DNA from: Flavobacterium sp. YO12
GTDB taxonomy: Bacteria > Bacteroidota > Bacteroidia > Flavobacteriales > Flavobacteriaceae
DNA length: 64,000 nt
Reading direction: 5' to 3'
Assembly (NCBI RefSeq): GCF_004119495.1
Contig: NZ_NRQU01000002.1
Location: 62,001-126,000 of the forward strand
Shown: positions 28,885-62,591 of the stretch, one piece after another
Layout: each line of letters begins with the position of its first letter
Numbering within the stretch: position 1 is the first letter of the stretch
The notes under the pieces: model-generated
Database searches by the model: none
The model's input: only the letters and a program-made list of their open reading frames with translations
What the model was told of the DNA's origin: nothing
Position numbers and translations under genes: made by a program

Positions 28885-31309
28885 TTATTCGTATTTTAAA
28901 TATTTCAAAACATCTATTTTGGTTACCTGATAGGCTTTTGCCAAAACAATTGTTAATGTCAGCGTAAGCAATGAAACAAGTGCAATGCTAAACGGAATTG
29001 GAGAGATATTGATTCTAAAAGCAAAATCTTCAAGCCATTTTTGCAGTAAAATGTAAGCTGGAATAATCCCGATTACAAATCCCATTAAACAATAAATAAA
29101 ATATTGTTTTGACAGCTCTTTCAATAAAACATCAGTTTCCGCACCAAGCGTTTTTCTAATCGCAATTTCTTTCAATCTTCTCTCCATCGAAAATGATGCC
29201 AAAGCAAACAATCCGAAGATGGCAATTATAATTACAACAAGATTTAGGATAAAAAATAGATCTTTTTGTTTTACTTGTTCTTCATACGTTTTAGCAAATC
29301 CTTTGTTTACAAATTCATAATCAAACGGATAGTCAGGATTTATATTTGCCTCCCAATAAGTTTTTAATTTATCCAATGTTTCGCTTAAATTAGTTGGAGA
29401 AACTTTTACATAGACATTTTGAAAGTTATTCCACTTTAAAGTTTTTGTGTTTATAAAAATCATTGGAGGTACCTTGTTTTGTAATCCTGTAATATGAAAA
29501 TCTTTTACAACACCAACGATCTTGAACTTTAGAGTTCCTTGTCCATTCGACCAGCCTGAGGTGATAACAGTATTTATAGGATTCTTAAGTCCTAAGTCTT
29601 TTACCAAGGTTTCATTAACAAGCCAGTTGCTGATTGTGTCTGAAGCAAATTTTGGAGATAAATTTCGCCCTTGAACAATTTTAATTTTCATCATTTCTAA
29701 AAAACCAAAATCCATTTCAACATTTCGAGGCTGTACAAAAATACCATTGTGCGTAAAACCAGAACTCGAATTAGTACTGTTTCCAAAAGTACCTGCAAAA
29801 GTAGAAACTTCTTGAACTCCTGATATTTTAAGTATTTCTTGCTTTGTAGTGGCATATTTCTGGCCTTTTGTTTCATAATTTTGATAATTGAAAGGAATTC
29901 GAAGTATCTGATCGCCTTTAAAACCAAGGTCTTTATTCATCATAAAATCAACTTGAGAATTTACAATTAAAGCCCCAATAATAAAAAACGTTGCAATGCC
30001 AAATTGAAAAATAAGCATCGAATTTCGAATCCAGATTCCATTTTTACTTCTTGAAAAATTACCTTTCAGCACTTTTAAAGTTTCAAAATTTGAGATATAA
30101 ACAGCAGGAAAAATACCAGCAAGAATGAGTACTAATCCAAAAATAAAAAGAAGCTGCAAGTAAAATTCACCGCCATTCATAGTCAAATTTTTTCTTAAAA
30201 AAGAGTTGTAATACGGAAGAGATAGTTCTACAATTGCCAAGGCAAATAAAATAGAAAGCGTTACAATTATTGCTGTTTCAAATATAAACTGTGCAATAAT
30301 CTGTTTTTTTGAAGCTCCCACAATTTTGCGAACACCAACTTCTTTAGCACGTTTTATGGCAGATGCTGTTGCTAGATTTATATAATTTACCAATGATAAA
30401 ACCAATATTAAAATCGACAAACCAGCCATAATATAAATAAGCTGTAAGTTTCCTTTTCCTTCAGGAGAAGCAGATCCTGACGTTTTGGTACCATGTAAGC
30501 GCAAAGTTTTCAGCTGATCAAGAATATTCTTTATCTCGCCATTTTCTTTAACAAATTGCTCAGGAGTTTGACCTACTTTTTTTGCCTCTTTTAAAATTAT
30601 ATTTACATAATTTACATTACGCATTTTCTTTAAAACGACATTAATATCAACGTTCTTTTTGGTCTTAATCATTAAACCATAGCTGAAATTTCCCCAGCTG
30701 TTAAGGTCATATTCACGAACAATACCGCTAAAAACATAGTTTGGTTCAATAGAAGATGGAGTTACAATGCGATAAACAGATTTTACGATATAGGCTTGGT
30801 CATTGTATGTAATAGGTTTTCCGATAGGATCTTCGTCTTTAAAAAGAAGTTTAGCTTGTCCTTCAGAAATAGCAACACTATTTTTTCCTTAGAATATTTT
30901 TTTTAGCACCTTTTACAATTGGAAAAGGGAAAAAATCGAAAAAATTATTATCAGATACCGTTATTTTTTTATCAATTATTTTTTTATTCTGATATTTTAA
31001 AACAGCCTCATCATACCAGTCGTTTAAGAAACAAATTTGTTCAATTTCAGGAATTGTAGCCTTACAGGTTTGCCCAAAAGGAATTGTATTTGTTCCCCAG
31101 ATATCACCAGTTGATCCTATTTTATTTAGAACTTTATATACATTTTCTTTTTCAGGATTCCATTGATCGTATGCGTGCTCATTATTCCAATATAAAATGG
31201 CAAAAATTACGCTGGCAATTCCGATGCTCAATCCTAAAACATTTAAAAACGAAAACAGTTTGTTTTGTTTTAAATGATAAATAAATATTTTAAACCAATT
31301 AAAAATCAT
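28885..31309 (-). pseudogene. FtsX/MacB-type ABC permease, split by a frameshift
   Basis: The N-terminal frame (31309 to 30878) opens with MIFNWFKIFIYHLKQNKLFSFLNVLGLSIGIASV, the MacB_PCD first helix. It stops after NILRKK. In the +1 frame the protein continues at once as NSVAISEGQAKLLFKDEDPIGK, then through 28885 with the rest of a two-repeat MacB/FtsX architecture (about 800 residues in all). Removing one A from the A6 run (T6 on plus, 30881-30886) restores the frame. No other defect was seen, so it is either a sequencing error or a very recent mutation. It is the membrane component for the ATPase and fusion protein just upstream. Confidence 0.85.
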
Positions 31310-31444: not shown

Positions 31445-32152
31445 TTATTTAGCGTCCATAAAAACATCAACATTTCTCTGATTTAACTTTTCAGAGAATA
31501 TAACACCATCTTTCATATGAATTGTTCTTTGCGAAAAAGAAGCATCATAATCAGAGTGGGTAACCATCAAAATTGTAGCACCTTTAGCATGCAAATCAGT
31601 TAAAAGTTCCATAACCTCATTACCATTTTTACTGTCCAAATTTCCTGTAGGCTCATCCGCCAAAATAATTTTCGGATCATTTACTAAAGCTCTTGCAACT
31701 GCAACCCTTTGCTGCTGTCCGCCCGAAAGCTGCTGCGGAAAATGTTTTAAACGATGTGAGATATTAAGTTTTTCTGCAATTGCTTCAATTTTTTGTTTTC
31801 TATCAGCTGCTTTTACGTTGTTGTAAAGCAACGGCAGTTCAATATTATCATAAACAGAAAGTTCATCGATTAAGTTGAAATTTTGAAAAATGAATCCAAT
31901 ATTTTCCTTACGAACTTGTGCTCTTCCTTTTTCTTTTAAACCAATCATTTCCTGATCTAACAACTTATAACTGCCGCCGTCAGCACTGTCTAGAAGTCCG
32001 ATAATATTTAACAAAGTCGATTTTCCACAGCCCGAAGGTCCCATAATGGTTAAAAAATCTCCTTTTTTAATTACTACATTTATACCGCTTAAAGCAGCAG
32101 TTTCAACGTCTTCGGTTCTAAATACTTTGGTTAAATTTTGTATTGTTATCAT
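31445..32152 (-). CDS. ABC transporter ATP-binding protein (MacB/LolD type)
   Basis: A 235-residue ATPase with Walker A GPSGCGKS (38-45), signature LSGGQQQRVAVARAL, Walker B IILADEPTGNLD and H-loop VTHS. The GNLDSKNG and the overall length are typical of the LolD/MacB group, whose permeases have one FtsX domain or two in a single chain. It energises the permease downstream, which is frameshifted in this sequence. The upstream gene encodes the membrane-fusion protein, giving a MacA-MacB-like exporter. Confidence 0.93.
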   Translation of the reverse strand: MITIQNLTKVFRTEDVETAALSGINVVIKKGDFLTIMGPSGCGKSTLLNIIGLLDSADGGSYKLLDQEMIGLKEKGRAQVRKENIGFIFQNFNLIDELSVYDNIELPLLYNNVKAADRKQKIEAIAEKLNISHRLKHFPQQLSGGQQQRVAVARALVNDPKIILADEPTGNLDSKNGNEVMELLTDLHAKGATILMVTHSDYDASFSQRTIHMKDGVIFSEKLNQRNVDVFMDAK

Positions 32153-32260: not shown

Positions 32261-33505
32261 TTACTTTGATTGAATCGACAATTCCTCAATATCCTTGTAA
32301 TCTGTATACGATGAGGTAATCACAGATTCTCCTTCGTTTAGTCCGCTCAAGACTTCATAATAAGAAGGATTTTCTCTGCCTAGTTTTATATTTCTTCTTT
32401 CCGCTTTATTTCCTTTTACGACAAAGATCCATTTGCCAGCAGTCTCTTGATTAAAAGCTCCTTTAGGAATTACCATTGTTTTGTTTTTTTCAGACAAAAT
32501 TAGTTTTACACCAAAGCTTAAACCATCTTGCAAGGCAATATTTTCTTTAGATGTAAAAGCCAATTCAGCACTAAAATGTCCGCTTTTTACTTCTGGAATT
32601 ACTTTAGTTACCAGAACTTCAAGAGTTTTTCCTTTAAATTCGACCTGACCTTTTAAGCCTTCTCTAATTTTTTCAAGATAAAACTCGTCAATTTCAGCCG
32701 TCAGTTTATACCCTTTTTTCGAGTCAATTTTTCCAATGCTTGCTCCAGCCTGAAATGTTTTTCCTAAAACAGGTTCAAACGAAGTCAATCGACCAGTTTC
32801 TGGAGCAGTAATCAAGAAATTCTTTTTGTTGTTTCTTAAAATATCCAAACTTTTTTCCATCGTTTGAATCGAGCGGTTAATTTGAGAAATCTGCAATTGA
32901 TTAGATTGCTTTTCTTTTTGAATACTCTGCTGAATTGTTTTTTTTCTTTCTTGTTGAAAACGTAAACTTTCTTTAAAAGTATTCCAGTCATTCTTAGAAA
33001 TTACTTCCTTTTCAAACAACTTAGAATTCATGTCATACAGTCTTTTTGCATCATTGTAATCATGTTCGATCAAAACTAAATCTTTAGTCAAATTCAATTC
33101 CTGATTTCTAATGTTCAATTTTCCCGTATTCAAATTATTAATCTGCTCAATAATTGCAGTTTCCTGCGTTAAGTAATTAAGTTCAGTATTTGGGTTGTAT
33201 AAACGAGCCAGCGATTGTCCTTTTGTAACCATTGCGCCATTCTCGACAAAAATCTCTTTTACAGATCCTCCTTCAGTAACATTTACAAGCATTACATTTA
33301 AAGGTTCAACCTTTGCCTGAAAAACAACAAAATCTTCAAAAAAAGCTTTTTCCACTTTTTGAATCGAAAGTTCTTCTGCTTTTACATTTAAACTTCTTTT
33401 TGAATTGAAAGAAAAAAAGACAATTGTGCCCAAAGCTAAAAAAACTGCAATTGCTATTGTCAGATGTCTAAATTTTCTATTTTTACGAGGAATTACCGTG
33501 TCCAT
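32261..33505 (-). CDS. membrane-fusion protein (HlyD/MacA-like)
   Basis: The 414-residue protein has a membrane anchor (about residues 14-31), a first half-lipoyl segment, and a long coiled-coil hairpin (about 115-220: repeated Gln/Glu/Lys/Ile). The second lipoyl half and a beta-barrel region follow. The sequence AETGRLTSFEPVLGKTFQAGASIGKIDSKK is the usual lipoyl return. It is the periplasmic adaptor between the ABC pump and an outer-membrane channel; no TolC gene is in this operon. A sigma-54 promoter and two operator-like repeats lie directly upstream. Confidence 0.9.
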   Translation of the reverse strand: MDTVIPRKNRKFRHLTIAIAVFLALGTIVFFSFNSKRSLNVKAEELSIQKVEKAFFEDFVVFQAKVEPLNVMLVNVTEGGSVKEIFVENGAMVTKGQSLARLYNPNTELNYLTQETAIIEQINNLNTGKLNIRNQELNLTKDLVLIEHDYNDAKRLYDMNSKLFEKEVISKNDWNTFKESLRFQQERKKTIQQSIQKEKQSNQLQISQINRSIQTMEKSLDILRNNKKNFLITAPETGRLTSFEPVLGKTFQAGASIGKIDSKKGYKLTAEIDEFYLEKIREGLKGQVEFKGKTLEVLVTKVIPEVKSGHFSAELAFTSKENIALQDGLSFGVKLILSEKNKTMVIPKGAFNQETAGKWIFVVKGNKAERRNIKLGRENPSYYEVLSGLNEGESVITSSYTDYKDIEELSIQSK

Positions 33506-33533
33506 TTTTTAAATAATTTACTGATAATCAATA

Positions 33534-33549
33534 GGTAAATACTGTGCCA
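33534..33549 (-). promoter_or_regulatory. sigma-54 (-24/-12) promoter for the exporter operon
   Basis: On the minus strand TGGCACAGTATTTACC: TGGCAC at the -24 element, correct 11-base distance from the GG to the -12 element, which reads TTAC instead of TTGC. The start codon of the fusion-protein gene follows 29 bases on. The divergent gene encodes a sigma-54 activator. Confidence 0.75.
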
Positions 33550-33613
33550 TAAAATTTATTATTTGTAAAGCATTGATTTTAAAGAAGCTTAAAAAAGTCA
33601 TCCCAAAAGCGAG

Positions 33614-33651
33614 TGTTCGATAATGAACAGTTGACCGTTCAAAATCGGACA
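33614..33651. promoter_or_regulatory. tandem activator binding sites
   Basis: Two copies of an inverted repeat: TGTTC, 6 bases, GAACA (33614-33629, perfect) and CGTTC, 6 bases, GGACA (33636-33651). They are 22 bases apart, two DNA turns, and lie 65-102 bases upstream of the -24 element, the usual enhancer range. Probably bound by the response regulator encoded at 33664. Confidence 0.7.
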
Positions 33652-33663
33652 AAAAAATACAGC

Positions 33664-35007
33664 ATGAGAAAAAAGCAAGCCCAAATATTAATTGTTGACG
33701 ATCAGGAGGAAATTCTTTTTTCGGCCAAAATGATTCTGAAAAAACATTTTGAAACGATTTTTACAACAAATAGTCCAAAGAAAATCTTTTCGATTTTAAG
33801 CGAAAATGAAATTAATGTTGTTTTGCTCGACATGAATTATAGAATTGGTTTTGAAGACGGCCGTGAAGGAATTCATTGGCTTAAAGAAATCAAAACATTT
33901 TCGCCGCAAACAGTTGTAATTTTAATGACTGCTTTTGGTAAAATTGATACAGCAGTTGAAGGCATTAAAATTGGTGCTTTTGATTATGTTTTAAAACCCT
34001 GGCATAACGAAAAACTGCTTGAAATTATTGATAAAGCGGTTTCGGAGAGCAGAAAAAACAGCAAAAAAACAATCGTAGAAAAAACCGAAAAACGTTATTT
34101 TATTGGGACTTCTCAAAAAATAAAACAAGCGTATTCTATTGCCGAAAAAGTAGCCAGAACAGATGTTAATGTCTTGATTTTGGGCGAAAACGGAACAGGA
34201 AAATATGTTTTTGCCGAGTATATTCATCAAAATTCAGAACGTAAAAAAGAAGCCTTTGTTCATGTTGATTTAGGTTCTTTGAGTGATAATTTGTTCGAAA
34301 GTGAACTTTTCGGATACGCAAAAGGAGCTTTTACAGATGCAAAAACAGACACTGCCGGCAGATTTGAAATGGCACAAAATGGTACTATTTTTTTAGACGA
34401 AATAGGAAATATTCCGCTTCATCTGCAATCAAAATTATTACATGTGCTTCAGACCAAAACCGTTACTCGTTTAGGCGAAAGTAAAGCAAGACCTTTAAAT
34501 GTAAGAATTATTTCGGCTACAAATAATGATATTAAAGCAGAAGTAAAAAATAAAACCTTTAGAGAAGATTTACTGTATCGCATTAATACTATGGAAATAA
34601 ATCTGCCCTCTCTTCGCGAACGCAAAGAAGATATTGTTCCGATGGCACATTTCGTTTTAGATCAGATTGCGGCAAAATACAATCAAGAAAACTGGCATTT
34701 TGAAGAAAATGCTGCTCTGTATTTAGAGAAATATCCGTGGAAAGGAAATGTTCGTGAAATGGAAAATAAAATTGAGCGCGCTTTAATTTTAGCTGATAAC
34801 AATACCATTTCTGTACATGATCTGGATATTTTAGATTTTGAAGAAACTCCAGAAAATGATGAAAATCCATTGTCTGAAATGGAGAAAACGGCTATCGAAA
34901 AAGCCCTTTTTAAACATCACGGAAATATCAGTAAAACAGCCGAAGAACTTGGATTATCAAGAGCGGCATTGTATAGAAGAATTGAAAAATATGATTTAAA
35001 GAATTAA
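33664..35007 (+). CDS. sigma-54-dependent response regulator (NtrC family)
   Basis: A 447-residue regulator. The receiver domain has D11/D12 and phospho-acceptor D56 (VVLLDMNYR). The AAA+ domain has Walker A GENGTGK and the sigma-54 contact loop GAFTDA (221-226), in place of the canonical GAFTGA. A Fis-type helix-turn-helix (LSRAALYRRIEKYDL) closes the protein. The ATG at 33664 is preferred over the GTG at 33613 because the longer start would lie on the operator repeats. It activates the divergent exporter operon and probably itself. The kinase follows 126 bases downstream. Confidence 0.93.
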   Translation: MRKKQAQILIVDDQEEILFSAKMILKKHFETIFTTNSPKKIFSILSENEINVVLLDMNYRIGFEDGREGIHWLKEIKTFSPQTVVILMTAFGKIDTAVEGIKIGAFDYVLKPWHNEKLLEIIDKAVSESRKNSKKTIVEKTEKRYFIGTSQKIKQAYSIAEKVARTDVNVLILGENGTGKYVFAEYIHQNSERKKEAFVHVDLGSLSDNLFESELFGYAKGAFTDAKTDTAGRFEMAQNGTIFLDEIGNIPLHLQSKLLHVLQTKTVTRLGESKARPLNVRIISATNNDIKAEVKNKTFREDLLYRINTMEINLPSLRERKEDIVPMAHFVLDQIAAKYNQENWHFEENAALYLEKYPWKGNVREMENKIERALILADNNTISVHDLDILDFEETPENDENPLSEMEKTAIEKALFKHHGNISKTAEELGLSRAALYRRIEKYDLKN

Positions 35008-35133: not shown

Positions 35134-36459
35134 ATGAAGAACTGGAAATTTCATAATGCTTTTTTTATACGAGTTTTGTTCGTAATGATACTCTTTTTCT
35201 TTTGTTTTTTTCTAATCTATAAAATGTTTTATTTCAATGCGATTTTAGTAGGTTCTTTCGCTTTGACAATGCTTGCCGAAATGTATTTTTATGTAAAAAG
35301 TAAATTGCAGTTTTATGACAGAACACTGCTTTCGATTTTGCAGGATGATTTTTCTACGAACTTTCCTGAAGAGAATAAAAAAGACAATTTTAAAAGTTTG
35401 TATGCTTTGTATGAAGCTCTAAAATCAAGGCATCAGGAACAAACTTCAAAAGAACTTATTTATCAGTCCTTATTAAATAACATTGATACTGCGGCTGTAA
35501 TTCTCGAAAAAGAAGATGAAGATTGGAAGATTTTTTTAATGAACGACTGTTTTTCTCGTTTATTTAAAGTTCCAAAAGTCAGTCATTGGAAATATCTTAA
35601 AAATTATCTGCCATCGCTTTGTTATGAAATTGAGAAAAAGGAATTCAGCGAATTAAAATCGGCAGTTTCTATTAAAATTGAAGATCAAGATTTACAGACT
35701 TTTATACTGCAGACTTCGAGAACTCAAACCTATAAAAAAGAATATTTTATTATTTTATTAGATAGCATTCAGCGTGTTATAGAGAAAAAAGAAAAAGAAG
35801 CGTGGATTAATTTAATGAAAATTATTTCGCATGAATTAATGAATTCTTTGACACCTATTCGTGCACTTTCGCAAAATTTACTTCAAATTGTAGATCAGGA
35901 AAAACTGGAAGAAGATGATTTTGAAGATATAAAAAGCAGCATTTCGACCATTATAAACAGAAGTGATCATTTGCAGGATTTTGTCGAAAGTTACCGCAAG
36001 CTAGCCATGCTGCCAACTCCGGTGAAAGAAATGACGCAGATTAATGCTCTTTTCGACGATTGTCTGCGGGTAATGAATCCTATTTTGAAAAGCGAAAACA
36101 TTAAGCTGATAAATGAAATTAATAGTTCGCGTTCTATTTTGATTGATAAAAATCAGATGGAACAGGTAATCATAAATTTGATAACGAATAGTATTTATGC
36201 CCTGAAAGGAAAAAGAGAAAAGCAATTGTTTTTGTCGAGTTACACTGAAAATAATCGCTTTTTTATCATAATTTCAGATAACGGTAAGGGAATTGATCCA
36301 GAAATTCAAGACAAAATATTTCTTCCTTTTTTCACTACCAGAAAAGACGGTGCAGGAATTGGGTTAACACTTTCAAAAAATATTATTGAAGCTCACGGAG
36401 GATATTTAAGCTATCAGACAGACGAAGATAAAACAAGCTTTGTGATTTGTTTGATTTGA
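35134..36459 (+). CDS. sensor histidine kinase
   Basis: A 441-residue kinase with two N-terminal transmembrane helices (about 9-25 and 31-53) and very little periplasmic loop, so the signal is probably sensed in the membrane or cytoplasm. A cytoplasmic PAS-like region comes next. The H-box ISHELMNSLTP holds the phosphorylated H233, and the HATPase domain shows NLITNSIYALKG, DNGKGID and GAGIGLTLSK. It pairs with the response regulator encoded upstream. The GTG at 35110 lies in a repeat and the ATG at 35134 is better placed. Confidence 0.93.
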   Translation: MKNWKFHNAFFIRVLFVMILFFFCFFLIYKMFYFNAILVGSFALTMLAEMYFYVKSKLQFYDRTLLSILQDDFSTNFPEENKKDNFKSLYALYEALKSRHQEQTSKELIYQSLLNNIDTAAVILEKEDEDWKIFLMNDCFSRLFKVPKVSHWKYLKNYLPSLCYEIEKKEFSELKSAVSIKIEDQDLQTFILQTSRTQTYKKEYFIILLDSIQRVIEKKEKEAWINLMKIISHELMNSLTPIRALSQNLLQIVDQEKLEEDDFEDIKSSISTIINRSDHLQDFVESYRKLAMLPTPVKEMTQINALFDDCLRVMNPILKSENIKLINEINSSRSILIDKNQMEQVIINLITNSIYALKGKREKQLFLSSYTENNRFFIIISDNGKGIDPEIQDKIFLPFFTTRKDGAGIGLTLSKNIIEAHGGYLSYQTDEDKTSFVICLI

Positions 36460-61745: not shown

Positions 61746-62591
61746 TCATTTCTCAGCGGCAATTACTAGTGCGTTACCGTCGATGATTACATCTCCGTCA
61801 GGGAATTTTTCATTTACTAAATTAAAAACTTCTTGTTTTATTTTTTCTCTCATTTCATCATCGGCATTGCTGAGCGCAGCGACAAAAGGCGCGGCAATTT
61901 CTGTGATCAGATTCCAGTAGACCTCTGCAGTACCGCAGTTTAATTTGCCAGTAAGCTCTGTTTCGGAAGTGTTTTTAAATCCTGCTTGTTTAAAAATATC
62001 TGTCAGTAAACCACTTTTCGAACAGCGAAACATTCCTGGAGCTTCGGGCGGAGGAGGAGTGAGCTGCATGTTTCTGTTAATCGTTCCACCAACAGCAGTA
62101 ACCCAGAAATTTTTCTCAGGTCCGCTCCAGACTGCGGTTGCGATTTTGCCTCCGGGTTTCAGAACTCGATACATTTCTTTTGCTGCTAAAAGCATATCAG
62201 GAAAAAACATAAAACCCATTCGGCAGCTTATAGCGTCGAAAGTATTGTCGTAAAAAGGAAGTTCGGTGACATCGCAAGCTTTAAATTCGACATTTGTAAT
62301 TCCTTTTTTAAAAGCATTTTCACGGGCAATGGTGAGCATATCGTCAGCGAGATCGGTAATAATGACTTTTCCGTCAGAAAGCATCGCAGCAATGCTCAAA
62401 CCCGGTTCGCCAGTTCCAGCCGCGACATCTAAAATTACGTCTGATCCTTTTGGGTTTATCGAACGAATAATTTCATCGGCAAAAGGCCTCATAAAATCCA
62501 GAATTTCATGATCCCATTTTTTCCAGCCTGGAGAAAATTTGTTCCAAGATGCTTTTTGTTGTTCCCGTATTTCTTGAAGTTGTGGTTCCAT
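61746..62591 (-). CDS. class I SAM-dependent methyltransferase (UbiE-like)
   Basis: A 281-residue methyltransferase. Motif I is VILDVAAGTGEPGLSIA (about residue 55), a D for the ribose follows, motif II is NVEFKACDVTELPFYDNTFDAISCRMG and motif III YRVLKPGGKIATAVW. This is the UbiE/COQ5 pattern, but the C-terminal part differs and no ubiquinone or menaquinone genes lie nearby. The substrate is unknown. Cytosolic. Confidence 0.85.
   Translation of the reverse strand: MEPQLQEIREQQKASWNKFSPGWKKWDHEILDFMRPFADEIIRSINPKGSDVILDVAAGTGEPGLSIAAMLSDGKVIITDLADDMLTIARENAFKKGITNVEFKACDVTELPFYDNTFDAISCRMGFMFFPDMLLAAKEMYRVLKPGGKIATAVWSGPEKNFWVTAVGGTINRNMQLTPPPPEAPGMFRCSKSGLLTDIFKQAGFKNTSETELTGKLNCGTAEVYWNLITEIAAPFVAALSNADDEMREKIKQEVFNLVNEKFPDGDVIIDGNALVIAAEK

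Follow-up and report, generated by a model that had tools for sequence, protein, structure and literature searches.

The stretch of DNA between a response regulator gene and a divergent exporter operon in Flavobacterium sp. YO12 is very probably a compact NtrC-type enhancer, by which the adjacent regulator turns on the exporter operon via sigma-54. It lies in the window, the whole stretch of 64,000 nucleotides that was analysed (positions 62,001 to 126,000 of contig NZ_NRQU01000002.1), and all coordinates below are counted from the first letter of that window. In the mechanism that we propose, the kinase would phosphorylate the adjacent NtrC-type response regulator, which would bind as two dimers to TGTYC-N6-GRACA sites 22 bp apart. 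A protein of the HU/IHF family at an IHF-type site would bend the DNA, and the bend would bring the regulator to RNA polymerase–sigma-54 held at a -24/-12 element. The AAA+ domain of the regulator would then open the promoter, and the adaptor–ATPase–permease operon would be made. The case is built on sequence comparison, which demonstrates the operator pair, its conservation, its helical phase relative to the promoter, an enrichment of bend sites, and a joint change of operator half-site and recognition helix.

Elements and genes in the window

Facing the exporter, on the minus strand, is a predicted sigma-54 -24/-12 element, TGGCACAGTATTTACC (33534..33549). Operator 1, the promoter-proximal candidate upstream activating site, is TGTTC-N6-GAACA with perfect half-sites (TGTTCGATAATGAACA, 33614..33629), and operator 2, the distal site, is CGTTC-N6-GGACA (CGTTCAAAATCGGACA, 33636..33651). 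The distance from one operator to the other is 22 bp, with the hexamer GTTGAC between them (33630..33635), and a putative IHF-type bend site, AATCAATGCTTTA (33566..33578, minus strand), lies between the operators and the promoter. If the second G of TGGCAC is set as -24, simple arithmetic predicts an exporter start at ~33523, operator centres at approximately -98 and -120 relative to it, and an exporter ATG (33505) ~18 nt downstream. On the other side, the operators stand 13-50 nt before the first ATG of the regulator (33664), with 12 nt between operator 2 and this codon. A GTG start at 33613, which would put the operators inside the regulator gene, was considered and rejected, since the distance between the operators and the ATG varies by single bases among relatives (operator start at -49, -50, or -51).

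On the window sequence alone, these motifs could still be chance occurrences. The -24/-12 pattern has one match in the window where 0.33 would be expected, and a match also turns up in 25 of 100 shuffles; palindromes with no more than two mismatches number 36 versus 40.8 expected, and only one of them is perfect. These two tests used shuffles, while all other null distributions reported here are first-order Markov resamplings. We regard the motifs as real rather than chance because they are conserved among relatives, as described below.

The first gene of the exporter operon encodes a MacA/HlyD-type periplasmic adaptor (32261..33505, minus strand; HlyD_3 and HlyD_D23, with RND_mfp above cut-off). 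The next genes encode an ABC exporter ATPase of the MacB/LolD/DarD-like kind (31445..32152, minus strand; ABC_tran) and an FtsX/MacB-type permease (28885..31309, minus strand). By profile searches, the exporter class is a MacA-like adaptor, a MacB/LolD-type ATPase, and an FtsX/MacB permease, the last being MacB/ADOP-like, with ADOP as its top NCBIfam model and DarB second. The profiles show the class alone, and the role in envelope stress or antimicrobial export that the sequence-only reading had called probable is a possible one. The permease frame is split in the window (31309-30878 and 30672-28885), and in all 80 named relatives (the best 80 of 247, described below) a single open frame of 807-831 aa encodes the permease; the split reflects either a real loss or an assembly error.

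In the divergent direction, the NtrC-type response regulator (33664..35007, plus strand) has a receiver, a sigma-54 AAA+ activator, and a Fis-type HTH domain (PF00072, PF00158, and PF02954), all over their cut-offs. It is followed by a histidine kinase (35134..36459, plus strand), in which HATPase_c is over the cut-off and HisKA under it. By hydropathy, the N-terminus of this kinase holds one merged hydrophobic stretch (5-40), which we interpret as a pair of membrane helices joined by hardly any loop. Adjacent or merged N-terminal stretches, again judged by hydropathy only, are found in the window kinase and in 16 of 21 relatives; of the others, one has a single stretch and four are partial frames. 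The loop by which such regulators contact sigma-54 has the textbook form GAFTGA. Here it is GAFTDA in 80/80 named regulators (best 80 of 247), and among 89 wider regulators, it is GAFTDA in 74, GSFTDA in 11, GAFTGA in 2, and GAFTNA in 1, with none seen in 1. The genome also contains an RpoN gene and two HU/IHF-family genes. The sequence-only reading had described the promoter element, both inverted repeats, the 22-base operator distance, and the 65-102 base offsets from the -24 element, all of which are exact to the base, and its assignment of the adjacent gene to an NtrC-type activator followed by its kinase is supported by the domain searches.

Conservation of the operators and the promoter

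A scan of named genomes found 247 relatives, of which the best 80 were retained. By title, the 80 loci are from 76 Flavobacterium, three Flavobacteriaceae bacterium, and one [Flexibacter], and the nearest named relative among them is F. oncorhynchi (99%). The scan also placed the ortholog in Flavobacterium johnsoniae strain CI04 (L154). Within this best 80 of 247, the operator pair is found in every locus, 22 bp apart every time, and operator 1 always has the form TGTYC-N6-GAACA. TGGCA(C/T), i.e., RTGCCA, is found 63-64 bp from operator 1 in 79/80; the exception (L190) has GTGCCG at the -24 position. The gene order permease–ATPase–adaptor–regulator–kinase is likewise seen in 79/80, and no kinase was seen in L188, a locus of 7329 bases. 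The sequence-only reading had held that a sigma-54 promoter faces the exporter, and the element is present in the same or nearly the same form in 79 of these 80 relatives. It had also proposed that loss of the repeats in close relatives with the same gene order would count against it; when this comparison was run, the repeats were kept in 80 of the best 80.

In an alignment of 81 sequences, mean column conservation is 0.986 for the -24/-12 element, 0.975 for operator 1, and 0.988 for the hexamer, while the spacer next to operator 1 is at 0.784. Operator 2, with a variable N6 core, has a mean of 0.887 and as a whole is below the coding flanks (0.95 and 0.93). The columns of the bend site (0.918) have no extra conservation over their surroundings within Flavobacterium in this alignment, the adjacent spacer being at 0.917 and the adaptor leader at 0.927. 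The hexamer between the operators is nearly invariant in the genus, with GTTGAC in 74 and GTTGAT in 6 of the 80 named relatives (best 80 of 247). It is as conserved in Flavobacterium as operator 1.

To look beyond close relatives, loci were collected by searches with the regulator, which had matches in 54/150 genomes of the genus, 25/199 of the family, 29/148 of the order, and 23/198 of the class. These sets overlap, and up to 30 loci were taken from each search, giving 106 study loci, many of them closely related to each other; six matches to other regulators in the own genome (L003-L008) were left out. A strict operator pair is present upstream of the regulator in 80 of the 106 loci, versus a mean of 0.1 and a maximum of 1 in 20 rounds of Markov-resampled upstream DNA, and in none of the 106 over the 2.8 kb that follow the start of the regulator. 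A looser scan recovered variant pairs in a further 15/106, and a recognisable pair was missing in 11/106. The paired upstream sites of NtrC type that had been proposed from the window are kept in the 80 named relatives (best 80 of 247), as well as in these 80 genus-to-class loci. A phylum-wide regulator search found matches in 77/296 genomes. It added 14 new loci, 8 with a strict pair (4 of these from the same genus) and 6 without, and RTGCCA is found at 52-63 bp in 7 of the 8.

The sites are separated from the regulator in L084 and L086-L089, five loci that belong to one family, with the pair 824-1332 bp away from it. In these loci, RTGCCA is found at 63 bp from the pair in three, and RTGCCG at the same place in two. 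The adaptor gene adjoins the promoter in L086, L088, and L210 (a larger stretch around L084), and none adjoins it in the flanking stretches examined of L087 and L089. In L210, a DUF4143/AAA_14 ATPase gene lies between the pair and the regulator. Since the pair keeps its -24 distance though the regulator is 0.8-1.3 kb off, the sites go with the sigma-54 promoter.

These loci also bear on whether the inverted repeats could act as RNA rather than DNA. Palindromic repeats located 13-50 nt before the regulator ATG, as in the window, could form hairpins in the regulator leader and serve as a thermometer, attenuator, or stability element. However, operator 1 is TGTCC-N6-GAACA in 23/80 relatives (best 80 of 247), placing C opposite A with no compensating change. 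In the five loci above, the pair keeps its usual distance from the -24 element although the regulator is 0.8-1.3 kb away, with another gene intervening in the one locus viewed in full (L210), and in other genera, operator 2 would be upstream of the predicted start of regulator transcription. We consider the hairpin explanation extremely unlikely and favor DNA sites that serve the exporter promoter.

Spacing, bending, and recognition

Spacing was analysed in 44 representatives at <80% identity, which were drawn from loci with a pair and are therefore not a gauge of pair frequency. One locus (L121), with the pair 1.45 kb off and no -24 box, was counted in the 80/106 and excluded from the spacing analysis. 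RTGCCA is found 45-80 bp from operator 1 in 39/44 representatives, versus 2.1 in the null (maximum 6 in 200 rounds). Taking the nearer box where two were in range, the 39 distances are 52-53 bp (10), 57 bp (1), 61-65 bp (27), and 75 bp (1). Consequently, 37/39 fall at 52-53 or 61-65 bp, two groups one helical turn apart. A regulator tree was made from an earlier choice of representatives, to which a few rows had been added. To explain the short (53) class on it, no fewer than 4 changes are required, and well-supported branches force 3 of these. The spacing classes therefore do not come from shared descent alone, though independent steps are few. In the group of loci with TGTAAA operators (L071, L073-L076), another RTGCCA is found at 23 bp from the first, like tandem -24 boxes.

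The spacer between operators and promoter is also where DNA bending would be expected in our model. In the window, it matches WATCAANNNNTTR, which we take to be the E. coli IHF consensus, exactly at spacer offset 16. The likeness was first spotted by eye in the same spacers and scored afterwards, and with this E. coli consensus, 30/39 spacers have a match with no more than one mismatch, versus 7.5 in the null (maximum 16 in 1000 rounds). Exact matches to the same consensus are found in 11/39 spacers versus 0.4, and coding DNA of equal length used as a control has a match in 2/39. Of the 30 matches, 26 fall in two registers 10 bp apart.

Whether the regulator may control itself through the same sites, as the sequence-only reading had suggested, may depend on the genus. 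In the related F. psychrophilum, PMC9723704 gives the sigma-A -7 box as TAnnTTTG. A box of this kind is found 5-8 nt after operator 2 in 15/37 representatives versus 4.1 in the null (maximum 11 in 1000 rounds), the 37 being the members of the 44 in which 12-149 nt separate operator 2 from the ATG. In these other genera, the regulator would compete with RNA polymerase at operator 2, as in self-repression, and self-control through the same sites is plausible there. For the window, the suggestion may still hold, although a sigma-A promoter or -7 box for the regulator was looked for and not found, and the sites are distant from the regulator in the five loci described above. The same boxes could be taken further, to mean that the sites chiefly repress the regulator's own gene and that activation of the exporter is secondary. 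Yet the sigma-54 distance is more widely kept (37/39) than the -7 box, it is kept also where the regulator is far off, and no -7 box follows operator 2 in the window, so that we view repression as the chief role as quite unlikely and retain activation of the exporter. In two other loci (L107, L108), the regulator itself is faced by TGGCA(C/T)-N5-TCCC elements, some 60 bp ahead of its match, which suggests that it may be under sigma-54 control there.

Recognition of the operators was compared with the recognition helix of the regulator in 51 rows. Regulators with an LYNK helix face TGTAAA/TGTTAA half-sites in 8/8 cases, all of them variant pairs from the looser scan. Such sites are found with 0/40 LYRR and 0/2 LYRK regulators and not in the one truncated row, the second operator class here being defined as "not TGTAAA/TGTTAA" and including some odd sites (e.g., L097). 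Operator class changes once on the regulator tree. Binding of the sites by the adjacent regulator is thus supported, not proven, by this covariation.

The sites could instead bind a regulator other than the neighbour. The genome has perfect single sites at 15 positions versus 10 for a control pattern. However, a partner site lies nearby only at this locus and at that of a paralogue (one of the 15, L048, ends at a contig end), half-site and recognition helix change together, and the two NtrC-type genes that come next in similarity are without such a site in the 400 bp upstream of the match. We judge binding by another regulator to be very unlikely, and the neighbouring regulator remains the favored partner of the sites. 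The paralogue of the regulator in the same genome is 66% identical and carries a tandem pair too, there at a distance of 21 bp. Its locus (L208, own contig C74, 14700-17841) also holds a kinase and a divergent ATPase and permease with no adaptor adjoining, and because of this, the make-up of the exporter can be said to vary. With one mismatch allowed, single sites number 328 versus 273 for the control pattern, and beyond the matches listed there may be further pairs made up of two imperfect sites. A wider regulon was considered from the single sites and is not claimed, because perfect sites are barely above the control and only two have partners. Among the one-mismatch matches listed, four palindromes of the TGTTYCACGTG type, presumably parS-like, occur within ~300 bp of the same genome (G000, contig C3, 134844-135146).

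Relation to known systems and significance

Promoters of the NifA/NtrC type combine paired dimer sites ~100-120 bp upstream with a -24/-12 element and a bend site for IHF, and helical phase matters for their function. The locus described here shares the paired sites, the -24/-12 element, the IHF-type site between them, and the phase. It differs in its operator (TGTYC-N6-GRACA), its very short loop, its phylum, and the response regulator coded divergently beside the promoter. Searches of open-licence papers brought to light none that describes sigma-54 activator sites in Bacteroidota. The type of switch is known, and this example of it appears to be undescribed.

Two published studies come close. 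PMC12316311 reports predicted sigma-54 promoters enriched before FtsX-like ABC permeases (COG0577) in Bacteroidia, gamma-Proteobacteria, and Opitutia, which it presents as the first evidence for a link between sigma-54 and FtsX-like permeases; it counts Flavobacteriia as a class apart from Bacteroidia. The phylum and the COG0577-type permeases are the same as here, whereas neither activator sites nor a regulator or bend site are named in the sections of that paper bearing on this link. In the same genus as ours, PMC9723704 mapped sigma-54 promoters in F. psychrophilum (motif SM4). Its Table 2A lists selected promoters of chaperones, gliding motility, and exported proteins, not of this exporter, and activator sites, as described here, are not given in that part of the work.

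As for the genes, the three exporter components resemble the darobactin exporter DarBCD and MacAB. Among NCBIfam models, DarC fits the adaptor best and DarD the ATPase, with scores below the equivalog cut-offs (DarC 168 of 450, DarD 279 of 375), and the intact permease of a relative also scores below the NCBIfam cut-off for DarB (112 of 700).

The Bce-type detoxification modules of Firmicutes have a kinase with almost no outside loop beside an FtsX-type ABC transporter. A kinase without an extracytoplasmic sensor loop, as judged by hydropathy, near an FtsX-type transporter is shared by the present locus. Bce modules differ in that they have an OmpR-type regulator and a BceB-type permease where an NtrC-type regulator and a MacB/ADOP-like permease are found here, and the sigma-54 promoter and the MacA-like adaptor are unlike those modules. 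A broader idea, which we hold to be doubtful though conceivable, is that such loci are, across Bacteroidota, a convergent equivalent of the Bce module. A loopless kinase would read the state of the exporter or the membrane and drive export by way of sigma-54 and an enhancer that is short and bent, the length of which would have evolved in whole turns, with operator and helix changing together.

In one family of regulators, operator, bend site, promoter, and phase can be read as a code across many genera. The whole-turn steps in spacing amount to an experiment of nature in DNA looping, and the group with LYNK helices and TGTAAA operators is a natural change of DNA specificity. Exporter control in an understudied phylum thereby becomes directly testable.
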